NCBI GenBank assembly: GCA_019261985.1
Contig: JAFAQY010000131.1
Location: 1 to 64,000, forward strand
Direction: 5' to 3'
From: Bryobacterales bacterium
GTDB taxonomy: Bacteria; Acidobacteriota; Terriglobia; Bryobacterales; Bryobacteraceae
Length of the DNA: 64,000 nucleotides
In this document: one piece after another, positions 8,721-61,848 of the stretch
Layout: each line of letters starts with the position of its first letter
How positions within the stretch are numbered: the first letter of the stretch is position 1
Made by a program: the position numbers and the translations under genes
Notes under the pieces: model-generated
Databases searched by the model: none
The model's input: only the letters and a program-made list of their open reading frames with translations
Told to the model about the DNA's origin: nothing

Positions 8721-8788
8721 GGCGATCCCTCCTTCTGTGTCCCTCTTCTGAAGGATCAGCCCCGGCGGCGCGCCGTTTCCCGGCTACT

Positions 8789-9140
8789 TAGAAACGCGCG
8801 CACAACGCAGGCTGGCGCGGTTCGGTTTTGGGATGCAATGGACAGCTTCGGTCCCGCCACCAGCTGCTGCGCGCTATTAGAAACCCGCGCACAACGCAAG
8901 CTGGCGCGGCCGGGTTTCGAGATCGACGGATGCCTTCGGTCCCCCCACCAGCCGCTGTGCGCTATCAGAAACCCGCGCACAACGCAGGCGGGCGCGGCCG
9001 GGTTTCGGGATCAATGGACGGCTTGGGTCCCGCCACCAGCCGCTGTGCGCTATTAGAAACCGCGTACAACGCAGGCTGGCGCGGCCGGGTTTTGGGATCG
9101 ATGGACGGCTTTGGTCCCGCCACCAGCCGCTGTGCGCTAT
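8789..9140. repeat. Four-copy tandem repeat, about 88 bases per unit
   Basis: Four head-to-tail copies begin at about 8789, 8878, 8966 and 9054 (unit lengths 89, 88, 88 and 87). Each starts with TAGAAAC and ends with GTGCGCTAT. Within a unit, AAACCCGCGC and GCGCGGCCGGGTTT can pair to form a hairpin. The copies differ by scattered substitutions. The last copy runs into the final codon and stop of the carboxypeptidase-regulatory-domain gene on the minus strand, so each unit carries the same ATAG that ends that gene. No protein-coding role is apparent. Confidence 0.9.
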
Positions 9141-10141
9141 TTGCCTACCATGTGCGGAACATCGACATTATTTTCCGTGCAAACGAATTCGTAAATTTCT
9201 TCGGAAGGAGCAAGCTCGGCGACGCGCTTGAACGTCCACGGTTTCGCGAGCACGCCCGGGTCTTCCACCGTCACCTCGGCTTCCAGATGGCCAAGATCGG
9301 GACGGCGGTAGCGCTCTATGACATGCAGTTTGTCGGTGTGCGGGTGGCCGTCGCGATCCAGCCAGGCACGATCGTTAAACCCGACCCGATCGATGATGAG
9401 CGTGTCGCCTTCCCATCGCCCGATAGCATGGCCTTGCCACGACGGATTCGGGTCCTTCGGATGGGCGCGCCGATCGAGGTAAATTTGCCGGAAGCCCGGC
9501 GTGGCATCGTCTTCAATATCGATCAGGTAATCCTTACTCTGCACGAGCTGCAGCAGCGGGCCCACGCGCGTAACCGGCGAGGGCTGGCAGCGAGCCTGAG
9601 GGCTTTCCTGGAGATTGTTGGCTTGCCTTTTCTTCATCAGGTCCTCGGCCCAGGGGAGGAATTCCGGCTTGCCCGGATCGGTTACAACAGGACTCCACCA
9701 CACGCCGGAAAAATCGGGCTTGCCTTCGGGGGTCCGCGGCGTAGGGCCTGACGGCGCATGATGGCGCTTTTCTGCCGCGGCGACGTTCAGGCGGTCCTCG
9801 CCCAGCGTGCTGAGCTGGGTTGTGTCTTCCAGCTGGATATCGAGCTGTGTCAGCTTCGCAGCCGCGACGGCGACGCCTTTGCGCTGAAACGGCTTCAGGC
9901 CGCCGACGTTGACGGAAATGTCGTAGGCGCCGGGCGGGAGACTCGAAAGGCTGTACGCCCCCTTTTGCGAAGCCACAGCTTTGAAGACCTTGCCGGTCGC
10001 CGTGTCCTTTGCTTGTACGGTGGCGTCTGCGACACCGCCGAGGGCATCGGTAACGACACCAGAAATTTTGCCGGATGGGTCCTGGCCGGCTGCGACGAAA
10101 GCGACGCCAATAGAAAAGAGCACCAACGCAGTTGAGCGCAT
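9137..10141 (-). CDS. Secreted protein with carboxypeptidase-regulatory domain
   Basis: The 334-residue exported protein has a signal peptide (residues 1-19), then a carboxypeptidase-regulatory-like beta-sandwich at about 22-105 (SGVVTDALGGVADATVQAKD, GAYSLSSLPPGAYDISV). The second half (TPRTPEGKPDFSGVWWSP, GHAIGRWEGDTLIIDRVGFN, RYRRPDLGHLEAEVTVEDP) is a domain seen repeatedly in acidobacterial exoproteins of unknown function. An AAGGAAA site precedes the ATG. The 3' end runs into the 88-base tandem repeat. It is probably periplasmic or cell-surface; no catalytic residues can be assigned. Confidence 0.75.
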   Translation of the reverse strand: MRSTALVLFSIGVAFVAAGQDPSGKISGVVTDALGGVADATVQAKDTATGKVFKAVASQKGAYSLSSLPPGAYDISVNVGGLKPFQRKGVAVAAAKLTQLDIQLEDTTQLSTLGEDRLNVAAAEKRHHAPSGPTPRTPEGKPDFSGVWWSPVVTDPGKPEFLPWAEDLMKKRQANNLQESPQARCQPSPVTRVGPLLQLVQSKDYLIDIEDDATPGFRQIYLDRRAHPKDPNPSWQGHAIGRWEGDTLIIDRVGFNDRAWLDRDGHPHTDKLHVIERYRRPDLGHLEAEVTVEDPGVLAKPWTFKRVAELAPSEEIYEFVCTENNVDVPHMVGK

Positions 10142-23936: not shown

Positions 23937-24995
23937 CTAGCCCCGCGCTCGGGAGGCCGGGACCGCCTGCGGTCCAGCCGCTGGGGCGGGCGCCGGCTCG
24001 GCGCGAACCATCCCTAACGCCTTGCGAAGCTCCTGGTCGACCTTCTTCATCACGTCGGGATTGTCTTTTAAGAACTGCTTCGCGTTCTCGCGGCCCTGGC
24101 CGATACGCTCGCCTTTGTAGCTATACCAGGCGCCGCTCTTCTCAATCAAGTTCTGCGCTGCGCCGAGATCGACCAGGTCGCCTTCTTTTGAGATGCCTTC
24201 GCCGTAGATGATGTCGAATTCGGCTTCGCGGAACGGGGGCGCCATCTTGTTCTTCACGACCTTGATCTTCGTCCGGTTGCCGATCACCGTTTCCCCGTCC
24301 TTGATGGCGCTGATGCGGCGGATATCGGCGCGAACGCTCGCGTAAAATTTCAGCGCCCGGCCGCCCGTGGTCGTTTCCGGATTCCCGAACATCACGCCGA
24401 TTTTTTCTCGAATCTGATTGATGAAAATCAGACACGTATTCGATTTGGAAACGATGCCGGTGAGCTTGCGCATGGCCTGCGACATCAACCGAGCGTGCAC
24501 GCCCATGAAGCTGTCGCCCATTTCGCCGTCGAGCTCCGCCTTCGGCACCAGCGCCGCCACCGAATCCACCACCAGAACATCGATGGAGCCGGAGGTAATC
24601 AACGCATTGGTGATTTCAAGCGCCTGCTCGCCGTAATCGGGCTGGGAAACCAGCAGATTGTCCACATCCACGCCCAGCTTGCGCGCGTAAGCCGGATCCA
24701 GCGCGTGTTCCACGTCGATGTAAGCGCCCATCCCGCCCTGCTTCTGCGCCTCCGCGACGACTTGCAGCGCAACCGTTGTCTTACCGGACGACTCCGGCCC
24801 GAAGATCTCCGAAATGCGCCCGCGCGGGAAACCGCCGATGCCGAGCGCATAATCCACCGAAATCGACCCCGTGGACACGGCGGGCGCCGCGGCCACGGCC
24901 TGCGAGCCCAACCGAATGATGGACCCTTTGCCGAACTGTTTTTCGATCTGGCCCAGCGTGGCGCCCAAAGCTCTGGCGCGCTCTTTTTCGTCCAT
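23937..24995 (-). CDS. recA: Recombinase RecA
   Basis: This is a 352-residue RecA, the ATP-dependent strand-exchange protein of homologous recombination and SOS induction. The Walker [10 protein letters not shown], the [20 protein letters not shown] segment, DNA-binding loops L1 ([20 protein letters not shown]) and L2 ([20 protein letters not shown]), and the C-terminal domain ending in an acidic to Ala/Pro-rich tail are all present. The start at MDEKERA is favoured over an upstream frame to 25121, because a TATAAT box lies only about 31 bases before this ATG. It is a single gene; no LexA-type operator was recognised. Confidence 0.97.
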
Positions 24996-25026
24996 GTGAG
25001 GAGATCCTTCCCAGGGGAGAGACCCC

Positions 25027-25032
25027 ATTATA
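25027..25032 (-). promoter_or_regulatory. Probable -10 box of recA
   Basis: TATAAT on the minus strand lies about 31 bases before the recA ATG, predicting a leader of about 25 bases that includes GGGAAGGA. A TGGACA element lies 20 bases further upstream, a longer spacing than usual, so the -35 is uncertain. Confidence 0.5.
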
Positions 25033-25245
25033 GCGCCGCACCTTCGTGCCTCTGTCCAAGGTTTTCGGCGGGCAGCGCCGAAAGCTGGCTCCTGCGGGAG
25101 GCGCAATACGATCTTGCACAAATCCGGGTGTCACGCATTGATCTTATGCGGCTGGAAATCGCTTAACCAAAAAAATGTTACGCCTGCGCCGGAAATTTGC
25201 CAGCGTCACGAAGACCCCGCTAGCCTTTGCCAGCAAGGAGGCATA

Positions 25246-25395
25246 TCACAAGATTGGTCCCAGCGCAGCGATAATACTCGTCACAGCCGAGACCACGACC
25301 CCTACGGCTTGAGCCGCGCTTGAGACTGCCCCTTCGATCTCCCTAAGTATGTCCGATAAGTTCGCTTTGGTTGTGGTATCCGTACTGTGCATCAT
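25246..25395 (-). CDS. Possible small hydrophobic protein overlapping the WWWY-repeat gene
   Basis: A 49-codon frame starts inside the last 53 bases of the repeat-protein gene, in a different frame. It has a charged N-terminal half (TDTTTKANLSDILREIEG) and a hydrophobic C-terminal half (AVGVVVSAVTSIIAALGPIL). The composition is protein-like and unlike a random frame. There is no good ribosome site. It may be a translationally coupled small membrane-active peptide, or the original C-terminus of the repeat protein displaced by a frameshift. Confidence 0.35.
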   Translation of the reverse strand: MMHSTDTTTKANLSDILREIEGAVSSAAQAVGVVVSAVTSIIAALGPIL

Positions 25396-26458
25396 TTCGT
25401 GCGGCGACAGCCCTCCAGTTGGCGGCAATCGCCGAGGAATTTGTTGTCTGATCCCACGTGTAGGTAGAGCCTGATTGGGGCGCCGAAGGCACCTGACCGC
25501 CGGCGCTGAACGAATAACCGTTCCCGTTCGCGTCGAGCACCACGATCGAGACCCCGAATGTCTGAGCGGGTGCCGTAATAATCGGAACATCTCCGCGGTT
25601 GGTGTAGGACCCCCAGAAATGACAGGTTCCGTTCGATTGAAGGGTCAGGTTCAGCGTGTAGGCGCACTCAGTGGCACCGCTGCTGGTGGTGCCGGACCCC
25701 GTCCCGAAATTCCACGTTATCTCGGGGGGGGGCACCACGACCGGCGACAGCACTGTCAGGCGCGCTTTGTTCGCATTCAGGTTTGCTGCCACCTGGTCGG
25801 CCGGGCTTTCGGGATACCACCACCAAGTCTGATCCGCGGGGGCCATGATCACGGCATACTTCAAGTTGTTGCTCGTGTCGAGGAAGGGGCTGATCGCGGT
25901 GAGCCGGGCCTTGTTCGCATTCAGGTTTGCGGCTACCTGGTCGGCAGGGCTGTCGGGATACCACCACCAAGTTTGATCAGCGGGGGCCATGATCACCGCG
26001 TACTTCAAGTTGTTGCCCGTATCCAGGAAGGGGCTGATCGCGGTGAGCCGGGCCTTGTTCGCATTCAGGTTTGCGGCTACCTGGTCGGCAGGGCTGTCGG
26101 GATACCACCACCAAGTTTGATCAGCAGGAACCATGATCACCGCGTACTTCAACTGGTGGTCTGTATCAATGTAGGCGCTAATATCTGTGAGCCGCGCCTT
26201 ATTCGCATTCAGGTATTGCGTCACCTGAGCGCCGGTAACGCCGGTGTACCACCACCAGGCTTGATTTGCAGGAGCCATGATGAGGGCAAACTTCACGGTG
26301 TTGTCGATATCAACGTACGCACGGATACTGGTGAGCATCGCCTTGTTGTTAGTCACCAGTTGGCCGATTTGGTCACTCAGAACGCTGGGGTACCACCACC
26401 AGGTCTGATTGGCAGGCGCCATGATAGTAGCAAATTCTAGCTGCAACAGACTAGCCAT
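25343..26458 (-). CDS. Protein with five 48-residue WWWY repeats
   Basis: The 371-residue protein has five tandem repeats (residues 7-245) at an exact 48-residue spacing. Each has Y/FA-x-IM-x-PA-[ND]-QxWWWY, a variable region, and NANKARLT..S.....D. The tryptophans fall at 20, 68, 116, 164 and 212. The layout recalls the bacterial tandem-repeat domain of polyglycine-hydrolase-like proteins (BTRD1), but this is from memory. The C-terminal 125 residues (ECAYTLNLTLQSNGTCHFWG, SFSAGGQVPSAPQSGSTYTW) look like a beta-sandwich without a recognised family. There is no signal peptide. AAAGGAGG lies eight bases before the ATG. Function is unknown; carbohydrate or peptide binding through stacked tryptophans is a guess. 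Confidence 0.65.
   Translation of the reverse strand: MASLLQLEFATIMAPANQTWWWYPSVLSDQIGQLVTNNKAMLTSIRAYVDIDNTVKFALIMAPANQAWWWYTGVTGAQVTQYLNANKARLTDISAYIDTDHQLKYAVIMVPADQTWWWYPDSPADQVAANLNANKARLTAISPFLDTGNNLKYAVIMAPADQTWWWYPDSPADQVAANLNANKARLTAISPFLDTSNNLKYAVIMAPADQTWWWYPESPADQVAANLNANKARLTVLSPVVVPPPEITWNFGTGSGTTSSGATECAYTLNLTLQSNGTCHFWGSYTNRGDVPIITAPAQTFGVSIVVLDANGNGYSFSAGGQVPSAPQSGSTYTWDQTTNSSAIAANWRAVAARNDAQYGYHNQSELIGHT
25724..26440 (-). repeat. Coding tandem repeat, five units of 144 bases
   Basis: The units encode the WWWY repeats. Units three and four (in reading order) are almost identical at DNA level and unit five nearly so, while the first two are diverged. This indicates recent unit duplication in the middle of the array and a gene that can change length by recombination. 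Confidence 0.85.
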
Positions 26459-26784
26459 CTTCTCTGCCTCCTTTGTGACGAATCATTATACACGGACATG
26501 GAATCAAAAACCCGCACCGTCTTGCGGTCACACATTTTCGAATTACCTTACGGCGGACCCTTCCTTGATGAAGTGATGCAGATCGTTCGTCTCGGAATGG
26601 GTCCTTTATGCAGCCCAACAAATGTCAACTGCAATGTTTCCGCCCGGCTCTTCCTTGTGACCTAACGCCGATCCGCTTTGTGGAAGCGCGGTCGACGGCC
26701 TCCCATCCGCGCCGCCTCTGCCCTTCTCCGCGTGAGGTCGCCGCCGACCCGTGCTAAAAAGCTACGATGAAAAGAGAATAGAAC
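26459..26784. other. 326-base intergenic region between divergent genes
   Basis: On the minus strand a perfect TATAAT at 26485-26490 sits about 27 bases before the repeat-protein ATG and is its likely -10. No convincing -35 was found. The rest holds no recognised gene. The end is the upstream region of the DUF433 gene. Confidence 0.5.
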
Positions 26785-27030
26785 ATGGCGAGTCTTGATT
26801 GGTCGCAATGCCCCGCGGTGGAAAGCATCCCTGGCAAGGTCAGCGGCGCATGGGTTCTTAAAGGTACCCGCATGCCGGTATCCGCCATTTTTGAAAACAT
26901 CGAAGCGGGAGCCAGCATCGACGATATTATGCAGTGGTTTGACGGCCTCGACCGTGAACAGGTCAAAGCCGTGATCGAGTTTGCCGCCCGCAGCCTCGAC
27001 AAACCCCCGGCTTACGCCCCAGCGCCGTAA
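26785..27030 (+). CDS. DUF433 protein, probable antitoxin
   Basis: The 81-residue protein shows the DUF433 pattern: PGKVSGAWVLKGTRMPVSAI, IEAGASIDDIM and FDGLDREQVKAVIEFA, a winged-helix-like DNA-binding fold. DUF433 genes usually precede a PIN-like DUF5615 gene. Here the TAA stop overlaps the next ATG by one base (TAATG), a tight coupling typical of a toxin-antitoxin pair. It may repress its own operon. Confidence 0.8.
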   Translation: MASLDWSQCPAVESIPGKVSGAWVLKGTRMPVSAIFENIEAGASIDDIMQWFDGLDREQVKAVIEFAARSLDKPPAYAPAP

Positions 27031-27350
27031 TGCGGGTTTTATTCGATCAGGCGATACCTGTTCCAATCCGCGCGTTTCTGGAAGGCCATACGGTCAGGAC
27101 CGCCGCGCAGGAAACATGGGACCGGCTGCGGAATGGCGAATTGCTCAGCGTCGCCGAAAGTGCCGATTTTGACGTATTTCTCACCACTGATAAAAACATC
27201 CGCTATCAGCAGAACCTTGTCGGCCGGAAAATCGCGATCGTTGTGTTGAGTAAGCAGCAATGGCCGGAAGTACGGGCGCATGTTGAGCGGGTTTTCGCGG
27301 CGGTCAACGCGGCCACTCCCGGCAGCTATACCGAAGTCGAAATCCCGTAA
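27030..27350 (+). CDS. DUF5615 PIN-like protein, probable toxin
   Basis: The 106-residue protein carries FDQAIPVPIRAFLEGHTVRT at the N-terminus, ADFDVFLTTDKNIRYQQNL in the middle and IAIVVLSKQQWPEV near the end. This is the DUF5615 PIN-like layout with acidic residues at positions 6 and about 45-54 for a metal site. It is paired with the DUF433 gene. Nuclease activity is inferred from the fold. It appears intact, unlike the VapC remnant at 23770. Confidence 0.78.
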   Translation: MRVLFDQAIPVPIRAFLEGHTVRTAAQETWDRLRNGELLSVAESADFDVFLTTDKNIRYQQNLVGRKIAIVVLSKQQWPEVRAHVERVFAAVNAATPGSYTEVEIP

Positions 27351-27431
27351 GTCTACCCGCGGTCAGGCGTCAGGCAGCCGCTTTCTATCCACAATCTGCT
27401 TTCACACCTGTCTTTGGGACAACGATCGCTT

Positions 27432-36528: not shown

Positions 36529-36643
36529 AAAACAAGCTTTAGCCTGTCCTCGGAAGTAGAACAAGCTTAAGTAGGACAAGCTTTAGCTTGTCCTTTCGGA
36601 TGTAGAACAAGCTCAAATCGGACAAGCTGAAGCTCGTCCTACT
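36529..36643. repeat. Array of degenerate class A palindromes in a divergent intergenic region
   Basis: One complete GGACAAGCTTTAGCTTGTCC copy (about 36574-36593) lies among partial or mutated copies (ACAAGCTTTAGCCTGTCC, GGACAAGCTGAAGCTCGTCC and single half-sites). Here the repeats precede both the BACON gene and the ABC ATPase gene, unlike the usual position after stops. They may sit in the leader of either transcript. Confidence 0.8.
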
Positions 36644-61500: not shown

Positions 61501-61837
61501 GGTTGCCGGAGTCCGCTACCGCGCATGGCAGCCGCCGTCGTGCCTGCATCCCACCATTCCCGTTCACACGCCACTGGTGTTCGATATTGTCGATACGTGG
61601 ACCGGCCGCTCCGTCGGTGGCTGTACATATCACGTCGCGCATCCGGCCGGACGCAATTTCGTCACGTTTCCGGTGAATGCGAACGAAGCCGAAGCACGCC
61701 GCGGCGCGCGCTTCTTCCCGCATGGCCACACGCCGGGCCCAATGGAAGTACCTCGAAGAGAGGAGAATCCCGAGTTCCCGCTGACACTGGATTTGAGAAG
61801 AAGTAGGACAAGCTTTAGCTTGTCCGGGACAAGCTGA
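58508..61837 (+). CDS. Transglutaminase-DUF2126 fusion protein
   Basis: The 1109-residue protein has an N-terminal bacterial transglutaminase region (THKTTYTYDRLVRLSPQIVR) and a transglutaminase-like catalytic core with Cys in GSCRDTAW, His in DLHAWTEV and Asp in IGLDPTSG. DUF2126 runs from about 330 to the end (MGGEPTFISIDNMDGEEWN, GWGLNGPEWQTGLWMLRGQH, LLELRGFEMPPHARMSLTQQ). Relatives cluster with ATP-grasp and alpha-E genes thought to act on peptides or proteins; none are present here. There is no signal peptide. The last residues are encoded by a class A palindrome, whose second half gives the TGA stop. Confidence 0.9.
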   Translation: MPVRVALTHKTTYTYDRLVRLSPQIVRLRPAPHCRTNVLAYSLKVEPKPHFLNWQQDPHSNFLARVVFPERVPFFSVSVDLLAEMKVINPFDFFLEPQAEKFPFKYDGWLGRELAPFLETGPPGPRLSSYLKDIDVSERGTMDFLVQLNQTLQNKIRYLIRMEPGVQSSEETLTLASGSCRDTAWLLVDILRNLGLAARFVSGYLIQLKPDNKPLDGPAGPERDFTDLHAWTEVYLPGAGWIGLDPTSGLLAGEGHLPLAATPDPASAAPVSGRVDECEVRFAHEMSIVRIHEDPRVTLPYTDRQWQHIDALGERIDQDISRHDIRLTMGGEPTFISIDNMDGEEWNTAALGPEKRLLAERLLDRLRERFAPGGLLHYGEGKWYPGEPLPRWALTCYWRADSVPLWLDRSLLARAGDKSNFGALDARHFAETLARRLRLDPENVNPAFEDPLYHLQKERQLPVNVDPVDNRLNNAEDRERLRRVFERGLETPSGMVLPLQRGWGLNGPEWQTGLWMLRGQHLYLIPGDSPLGLRLPLPSLPWVSPEEAPQFYPVDPMVNRGSLPAPVRHLPMDLPALQSRGRRERDRKPRTGESAPWIVRTALCVEPRDGRLHIFMPPLENAEDYIDLLAAIEDTAGHLEIPVVIEGYTPPCDPRLKQIKVTPDPGVIEVNIHPSQNWCELVANTTALYEDARQVRLGAEKFMLDGRHTGTGGGNHFVLGAATPSDSPFLRRPDLLRSMIGYWLNHPSLSYVFSTIFIGPTSQAPRVDETRADSLYELEIAFGQIPDPDTGNCPPWLVDRIFRHILTDVAGNTHRAEFCVDKLYSPDSASGRLGLLELRGFEMPPHARMSLTQQLLVRGLIAWFWRQPYRCPPIHWGTRLHDQFMLPHFTARDFRDVLDDLSGAGYAFDAEWFAPHFEFRYPVFGAAHHSGIDIEIRQATEPWYVLGEEGSAGGTTRYVDSSVERVQVKVNGLTGDRYVVTCNGRRAPLHATGQHDEWVAGVRYRAWQPPSCLHPTIPVHTPLVFDIVDTWTGRSVGGCTYHVAHPAGRNFVTFPVNANEAEARRGARFFPHGHTPGPMEVPRREENPEFPLTLDLRRSRTSFSLSGTS

Positions 61838-61848
61838 AACTTGTCCTA
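61803..61848. repeat. Two palindromes, class A, between convergent genes
   Basis: GGACAAGCTTTAGCTTGTCC and GGACAAGCTGAAACTTGTCC. The left copy is read through by the DUF2126 gene, which stops inside the second copy. The right edge gives the TAG stop of malQ on the opposite strand. Confidence 0.88.

Follow-up and report, generated by a model that had tools for sequence, protein, structure and literature searches.

The first 64,000 nucleotides of contig JAFAQY010000131.1 (GenBank assembly GCA_019261985.1, from a Bryobacterales bacterium), the whole stretch analysed here and called the window below, carry a gene for a protein in which the motif WWWY returns five times at a fixed interval. The locus raises the question of which family this protein belongs to, how its repeat units were copied, and what such a repeat region might do when fused to a second domain that no family search recognises.

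The gene, its surroundings and its family

The coordinates proposed for this gene in the first-pass annotation (Table 1) are correct and give a protein of 371 residues; the strand, which had not been stated, is minus. The start is certain, since only eight codons separate the preceding stop from the ATG and none of the eight is ATG, GTG or TTG. With the start fixed in this way, the predicted lack of a signal peptide was borne out as far as inspection by eye can tell, and the strong ribosome site claimed for the gene is present. The TATAAT motif exists too, but it does not hold up as a sign of good expression: a sigma-70 consensus scan of positions 24900-27400 returned 0 promoter-like sites, while shuffled sequences gave a mean of 1.1. 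We conclude that this is a real, well-formed gene and that it encodes a divergent BTRD1 protein with a new variant of architecture.

Table 1. Features of the WWWY-repeat gene, in window coordinates
Feature	Position	Strand	Basis
Whole gene, 371 aa, stop codon included	25343..26458	minus	ORF analysis
Unit 1, residues 7-54	26297..26440	minus	unit alignment
Unit 2, residues 55-102; top-scoring unit under the relatives-only model	26153..26296	minus	unit alignment and profile
Unit 3, residues 103-150; 95.8% DNA identity to unit 4	26009..26152	minus	unit alignment
Unit 4, residues 151-198	25865..26008	minus	unit alignment
Unit 5, residues 199-241	25736..25864	minus	unit alignment
C-terminal domain, residues 243-371, orphan, about 125 aa; holds both of the protein's only two cysteines	25346..25732	minus	family searches
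Ribosome-binding site AAAGGAGG, 8 nt 5' of the ATG	26467..26474	minus	sequence inspection
TATAAT, without a -35 element acceptable to the consensus scan	26485..26490	minus	sequence and sigma-70 consensus scan

The surroundings contain several other features. A 49-aa ORF (25246-25395, minus) starts with ATGATG (MMHSTD...), has a hydrophobic end and overlaps the end of the repeat gene in another frame; it has a codon score close to zero and a single, weak match (E 0.057) among 22 genus siblings, and it could be a small, coupled gene or have no significance. The genome has two recA genes, at 23940-25001 of the window and at G000:C97:12283-13293 (G000 being this same genome), whose proteins are 70% identical; within the genus, at least two recA matches, some of them fragments, occur in 18 of 23 genomes searched, a count to which this genome belongs. 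On the plus strand, positions 26785-27350 hold a gene for a DUF433 protein and then a 106-aa ORF without a Pfam match, which resembles its usual toxin-like partner. Further away lie a G+C-rich tandem unit of 88 bp (8783-9141, 4.1 copies, 87% matches) and two short tandem repeats with similar motifs, ACAAGCTT.. at 36532-36640 and GGACAAGCTG..CTTGTCC at 61806-61846, which are perhaps a dispersed palindromic element.

The repeat had been said to recall BTRD1 (PF17660), which Pfam describes as 'Polyglycine hydrolase-like, structural repeat', and the profile search proposed at that time gave a divided answer. Residues 1-120 reach 23.7 bits against a cut-off of 23, but PF17660 is not listed for the whole protein even up to E 10, and nothing in Pfam or NCBIfam matches the whole protein above a cut-off. 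A match to the Ada3 family (7.1e-5, under its cut-off) was judged a compositional artefact of the repeats. At genome level, a phylum-wide search with PF17660 at E <= 0.01 hit 13 of 396 genomes (11 of them over the cut-off) and had no match in this genome, where even a search at E <= 10 returned three other weak places and not the gene itself. Searches with PF17660 may therefore overlook similar genes.

As a test independent of the Pfam model, we built a second model on 12 units drawn from three proteins that other genomes encode (L016, L067 and L068); it contains no sequence of the window. With default options this relatives-only model matches all five units in register at 162.6 bits, while 1000 shuffles that preserve WWWY reach at most 42.3 bits; with filters and bias correction off, the values are 185.6 and 77.1 bits. 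L067 and L068, which carry beta-lactamase partners, also fall under the PF17660 cut-off of 23 (22.1 and 19.9 bits), so the Pfam model is simply narrow. Together with the score of residues 1-120, these matches uphold the BTRD1 identity. No known family with a described role matched the protein clearly over its full length, and the open-licence literature searched gave no function for the BTRD1 repeat; in the available text of PMC8078820, PF17660 appears as a row in a table of modelled repeat families.

An enzyme domain scores over its cut-off in eight of the 11 BTRD1 relatives scanned: PF13354 in L016 and L067, PF00144 in L007, L024 and L068, and PF01551 in L008, L009 and L010, with L006 just short of the last (28.5 against a cut-off of 28.7). 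L011 and L033, whose ORFs sit about 1 kb apart on one contig, have no Pfam family besides BTRD1 at E <= 0.001; a BTRD1 protein without an enzyme is thus not unique to this locus. The order of the domains is also exchanged among relatives, as the M23 peptidase match precedes the repeats in L006 (where it is just under its cut-off), L008 and L009 and follows them in L010. Signal peptides were seen by eye in L006, L008, L009, L010, L011, L016, L024, L067 and L068; L007 seems to be without one, so the lack of export has a parallel as well.

The relatives-only model counts five units in our protein and in L010, L016, L067 and L068, and in the remaining four listed ORFs, whose units are more divergent, it picked up just 1 to 3 of them. 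The phase in which the units begin differs. In L016, L067 and L068 the first unit begins close to the WWW core, at model position 12-14, and an additional strand of the F-A-x-x-M type follows the last unit, while our protein begins with the strand and its repeat region closes with unit 5. By eye, L007 and L024 are core-first and L010, with its M23 partner, is strand-first, which provides a precedent for the shift.

The link to a solved structure runs through polyglycine hydrolase (PDB 7tpu). A profile of four repeat regions searched against PDB sequences has 7tpu as its first match, at a weak E of 0.089. The tie is firmer through L007, a PF17660 carrier (207 bits, with PF00144) that matches 7tpu nearly end to end (residues 10-621, E 1.3e-106). 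According to the available text of PMC9912923, the N-domain of this enzyme (Fvan-cmp) consists of five 44-aa structural repeats of EHEE type plus loops of 5-6 residues, which form a barrel; by analogy, the five units studied here probably close into one alpha/beta ring. Single-sequence AlphaFold models are of low confidence (mean pLDDT 39.2 for the whole protein and 44.6 for residues 1-246), and the strands and helix that recur in most of their units, in agreement with the 7tpu unit, carry no evidential weight at pLDDT < 45.

Copying of the units and occurrence of the gene

The motif WWWY stands at residues 20, 68, 116, 164 and 212, with a spacing of exactly 48, and a 144-bp tandem array underlies it in the DNA, which confirms the positions and the exact units read at first sight. 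Pairwise comparison of the 144 nt of each unit gives DNA identities of 95.8% for units 3/4, 75.7% for 3/5, 77.1% for 4/5 and 52-70% for the remaining seven pairs. For the same three pairs, over the first 41 residues, dS is 0.08, 1.08 and 0.82 and dN is 0.01, 0.09 and 0.08; dN is lower than dS in all nine pairs for which dS could be computed (nine of ten, the 1/4 pair excepted). Since dN is low throughout units 3-5 and dS is low for 3/4 alone, the protein sequence common to units 3-5 is under selection and only units 3 and 4 were copied recently. The recent expansion that had been proposed for units 3-5 thus stands for the 3/4 pair but not for unit 5, which is old at silent sites (dS 0.8-1.1).

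Units 3 and 4 have six differences, in two clusters that flank an exact run of 101 nt, and a run of this length has a probability of 0.0037 if differences are scattered uniformly. A conversion tract therefore fits no less well than a duplication, a hint that gene conversion took the place of a duplication or followed one.

Comparison with the relatives addresses the older history of the units. Over about 34 residues, the mean identity between units is 58.8% in our protein, 45.1% in L016, 33.5% in L067 and 44.4% in L068. All five units are nearest to a unit of their own protein when compared with the 15 units of these relatives, unit 2 only narrowly (56 against 53%); the same holds for five of five units in L016 and for none of five in either L067 or L068. 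Because L016 behaves in this way too, the measure alone also reflects distance from the relatives, or else L016 was amplified too. In a unit tree of 36 alignment columns and three relatives only, our units form a clade of their own with support of 99 and 98 under two models. They do not match the relatives' units position by position in any rotation (28-39%). The same-position arrangement is the best rotation for L016/L067 (41.7%) and L016/L068 (40.5%), and another rotation is slightly better for L067/L068 (44.7 against 42.4%). A constraint grouping the same-position units of all four proteins was rejected (AU 1.3e-5); it also breaks up the L016 units, so the rejection is not specific to our protein. 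Evidence particular to our protein comes from the support for its clade and from the absence of a better rotation. These patterns in the sequences suggest that the units may have been re-amplified independently or homogenised, two processes that are indistinguishable here.

The protein had no match in 100 other genomes. The unit profile matched one of 237 family genomes, namely its own, and none of the 236 others; completeness is 90% or more and contamination 5% or less in 148 of the 237. In the class sample, three of 298 other genomes matched: two with five units each (G651 and G662) and a doubtful one (G536), dropped as a match of 25 positions with a stop inside. In the phylum sample, two of 395 other genomes matched, G472 and the doubtful G202, and the latter was dropped on account of stops inside. 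Neither the gene nor either of its flanking stretches was found in 17 sibling recA loci, which reached 1.5 kb upstream of recA. The genomes searched thus show it as a solitary gene, gained or remade within its own lineage.

Three pattern searches of viral contigs (1, 47 and 89 stretches matched) confirmed no relative, and three viral loci hold no WWWY repeat protein among their ORFs of at least 150 aa. The whole protein had no match in plasmid and phage records, unit 2 joined to the sequence of a later unit had none in plasmid records, and defence-system models gave none for the protein up to E 1. The one candidate from genome contigs (L005, 45% over 33 residues) was judged a chance match, being built on an 8-residue pattern with stops on both sides and a longer ORF on the opposite strand.

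Possible roles of the protein

The C-terminal domain had been described as an unrecognised beta-rich domain, and the first adjective is the one that survives. No family was found for residues 243-371 in PHROGs or NCBIfam, nor for residues 247-371 in Pfam; phage and plasmid records gave no match to residues 243-371 at E <= 10, and PDB sequences nothing better than E 0.87. The fusion of BTRD1 to an unrecognised second domain is accordingly real within the libraries searched. The beta-rich character, on the other hand, goes back to composition (T, G, S, A and N) and to a model of very low confidence (pLDDT 39), and is not supported. Of 395 other genomes, 38 gave matches to the domain at E <= 0.05, the best (8.9e-5) with stops inside. 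We compared the domain by tblastn with loci from 29 of these 38 genomes, and many of the best 14 matches have stops or align without its pattern. Two stop-free matches, L039 (E 7e-4) and L040 (E 8e-4), retain a W-D and an N-W; they were nevertheless judged chance matches, since L039 belongs among the outer-membrane beta-barrel proteins (PF25183) and L040 looks by eye like a close copy of L039. A very remote relation is conceivable.

Our tentative preference, which stops a little short of calling it probable, is that the protein is a stand-alone, non-catalytic binding or adaptor protein. The five units would close into a single alpha/beta ring like that of 7tpu. The chain begins with the strand that ends the repeat regions of its nearest relatives, so the N-terminal strand would be the one to close the ring. 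The WWWY strand, recurring in each of the five units, would provide the packing of the core and present repeated stacking sites, and the ring together with the C-terminal domain would bind a glycan or protein ligand. As there is no signal peptide, the site of action would most likely be the cytoplasm, or the protein might leave by another route. Copying of units onto each other, whether through duplication or through gene conversion, would keep the ring symmetrical.

Several observations lead us to this binding or adaptor role: the BTRD1 units themselves, their ties to the five-repeat barrel of 7tpu (weak by profile, firmer through L007), the lack of any enzyme family in our searches, the enzyme-free BTRD1 proteins L011 and L033, dN below dS among the units, and the separate clade that the units form (99/98). 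The available text of PMC9912923 suggests substrate positioning, exo-site binding, protein-protein interaction, chaperoning and anchoring as roles for such rings, and interaction and anchoring would fit an adaptor. Other observations speak against it. The whole protein is not listed for PF17660, both AlphaFold means are below 45, and the occurrence in a single genome also fits a short-lived gene. Moreover, since a recognised enzyme is present in eight of the 11 relatives, the repeat itself may do no more than hold or position such an enzyme.

In a second reading, which we consider unlikely, activity would reside in the C-terminal domain, as a so far undescribed enzyme or effector that the ring only carries or places, a part that BTRD1 may also play for beta-lactamase-like and M23 peptidase domains in other proteins. 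It would agree with the relatives, where BTRD1 is constant and the partner is exchanged (PF00144, PF13354, PF01551). However, the domain has no family, no phage or plasmid match and no good PDB match, hence no catalytic residues can be named, and its composition would be more like that of a binding beta-domain.

We also think it improbable that this is a young or decaying gene without a settled use, that is, a secreted hydrolase that has lost its signal peptide and enzyme and is kept for a while by recombination of its repeats. The presence of the unit in one of 237 family genomes and its absence beside recA in the 17 sibling recA loci would be expected of such a gene, and disruption is not rare among fresh beta-propellers (PMC9218822, available text). 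Against this, the gene has no stop or frameshift, its five complete units are in exact phase, its ribosome site is strong and dN is lower than dS between units. Simple truncation of L016, L067 or L068 does not produce this protein, since their repeats start elsewhere; a strand-first protein of the L010 kind could give rise to it by losing its partner.

Finally, we regard a convergent WWWY repeat without kinship to BTRD1 as very improbable indeed: the whole protein passes no Pfam threshold and the PF17660 search of its own genome (E <= 10) gave three weak places elsewhere, but residues 1-120 exceed the cut-off, the independent model separates the protein widely from its WWWY-preserving shuffles (162.6 against at most 42.3 bits), and L067 and L068, with their beta-lactamase partners, are likewise below the Pfam cut-off.

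Comparison with known repeat proteins

Compared with BTRD1 in general, the protein has in alignment the same unit length, the F-A-x-I-M strand, the WWWY or aromatic strand, the helix, the N-x-A-R-L strand and the five units; it differs in that the stretch ahead of WWWY is one to four residues shorter than in the four aligned units of L016, in that its units are more alike one another and in that it starts strand-first. The proteins most like it are L016 (same phylum) and L067 and L068 (same class), which have five units of WWWY type and are 28-34% identical to its repeat region. In contrast to it, they carry signal peptides (by inspection) and serine beta-lactamase-like domains and are core-first. 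L011 and L033 (about 430 aa) share with it BTRD1 without a recognised enzyme, but they have signal peptides by inspection, no aromatic triplets and, by eye, other C-terminal parts.

The likeness to 7tpu lies in the five repeats of each and in 7tpu being the top, though weak, PDB match of the profile. The available text of PMC9912923 describes 7tpu as a protease secreted by a fungus, with a C-domain of beta-lactamase-like type, limited sequence conservation among its repeats and an N-domain of unknown function; the N-domain fold is said there to be present across all kingdoms without a known function, and the predicted relatives discussed have no sequence conservation between repeats. Our protein, by contrast, has clearly alike repeats, no signal peptide by inspection and no Pfam match to a beta-lactamase-like domain with a nucleophilic serine. 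Nor was any enzyme domain recognised in it to which the Gly-Gly cleavage of polyglycine hydrolases could be assigned. An enzyme-free version with repeats so alike would be a simple object for testing binding by the ring and assembly from one unit.

The beta-propellers offer a comparison of another kind. According to the available text of PMC9218822, they alone among closed folds keep being re-amplified, the cut-off for recent amplification is a median internal identity over 60%, and a non-trivial number of freshly amplified propellers are disrupted. The best claim of the present protein to interest is that it might be a closed fold, besides the beta-propeller, that is still rebuilt from single units, and it would test the claim that only beta-propellers do so. 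What can be offered for re-amplification is that the units seem to derive from one another rather than from the corresponding units of relatives, that their start phase is shifted and that DNA identity between units 3 and 4 is 96%. We hold it possible, with clear reserve, that single units are still giving rise by amplification to this fold, which would be the second closed, globular one of the kind. It shares with recently amplified beta-propellers a probably closed repeat fold and units that are closest to one another; it differs in the fold itself and in its median internal identity (26 of 48 residues over ten pairs, about 54-55%), which is below the 60% cut-off. The likeness is therefore one of process and not of family.
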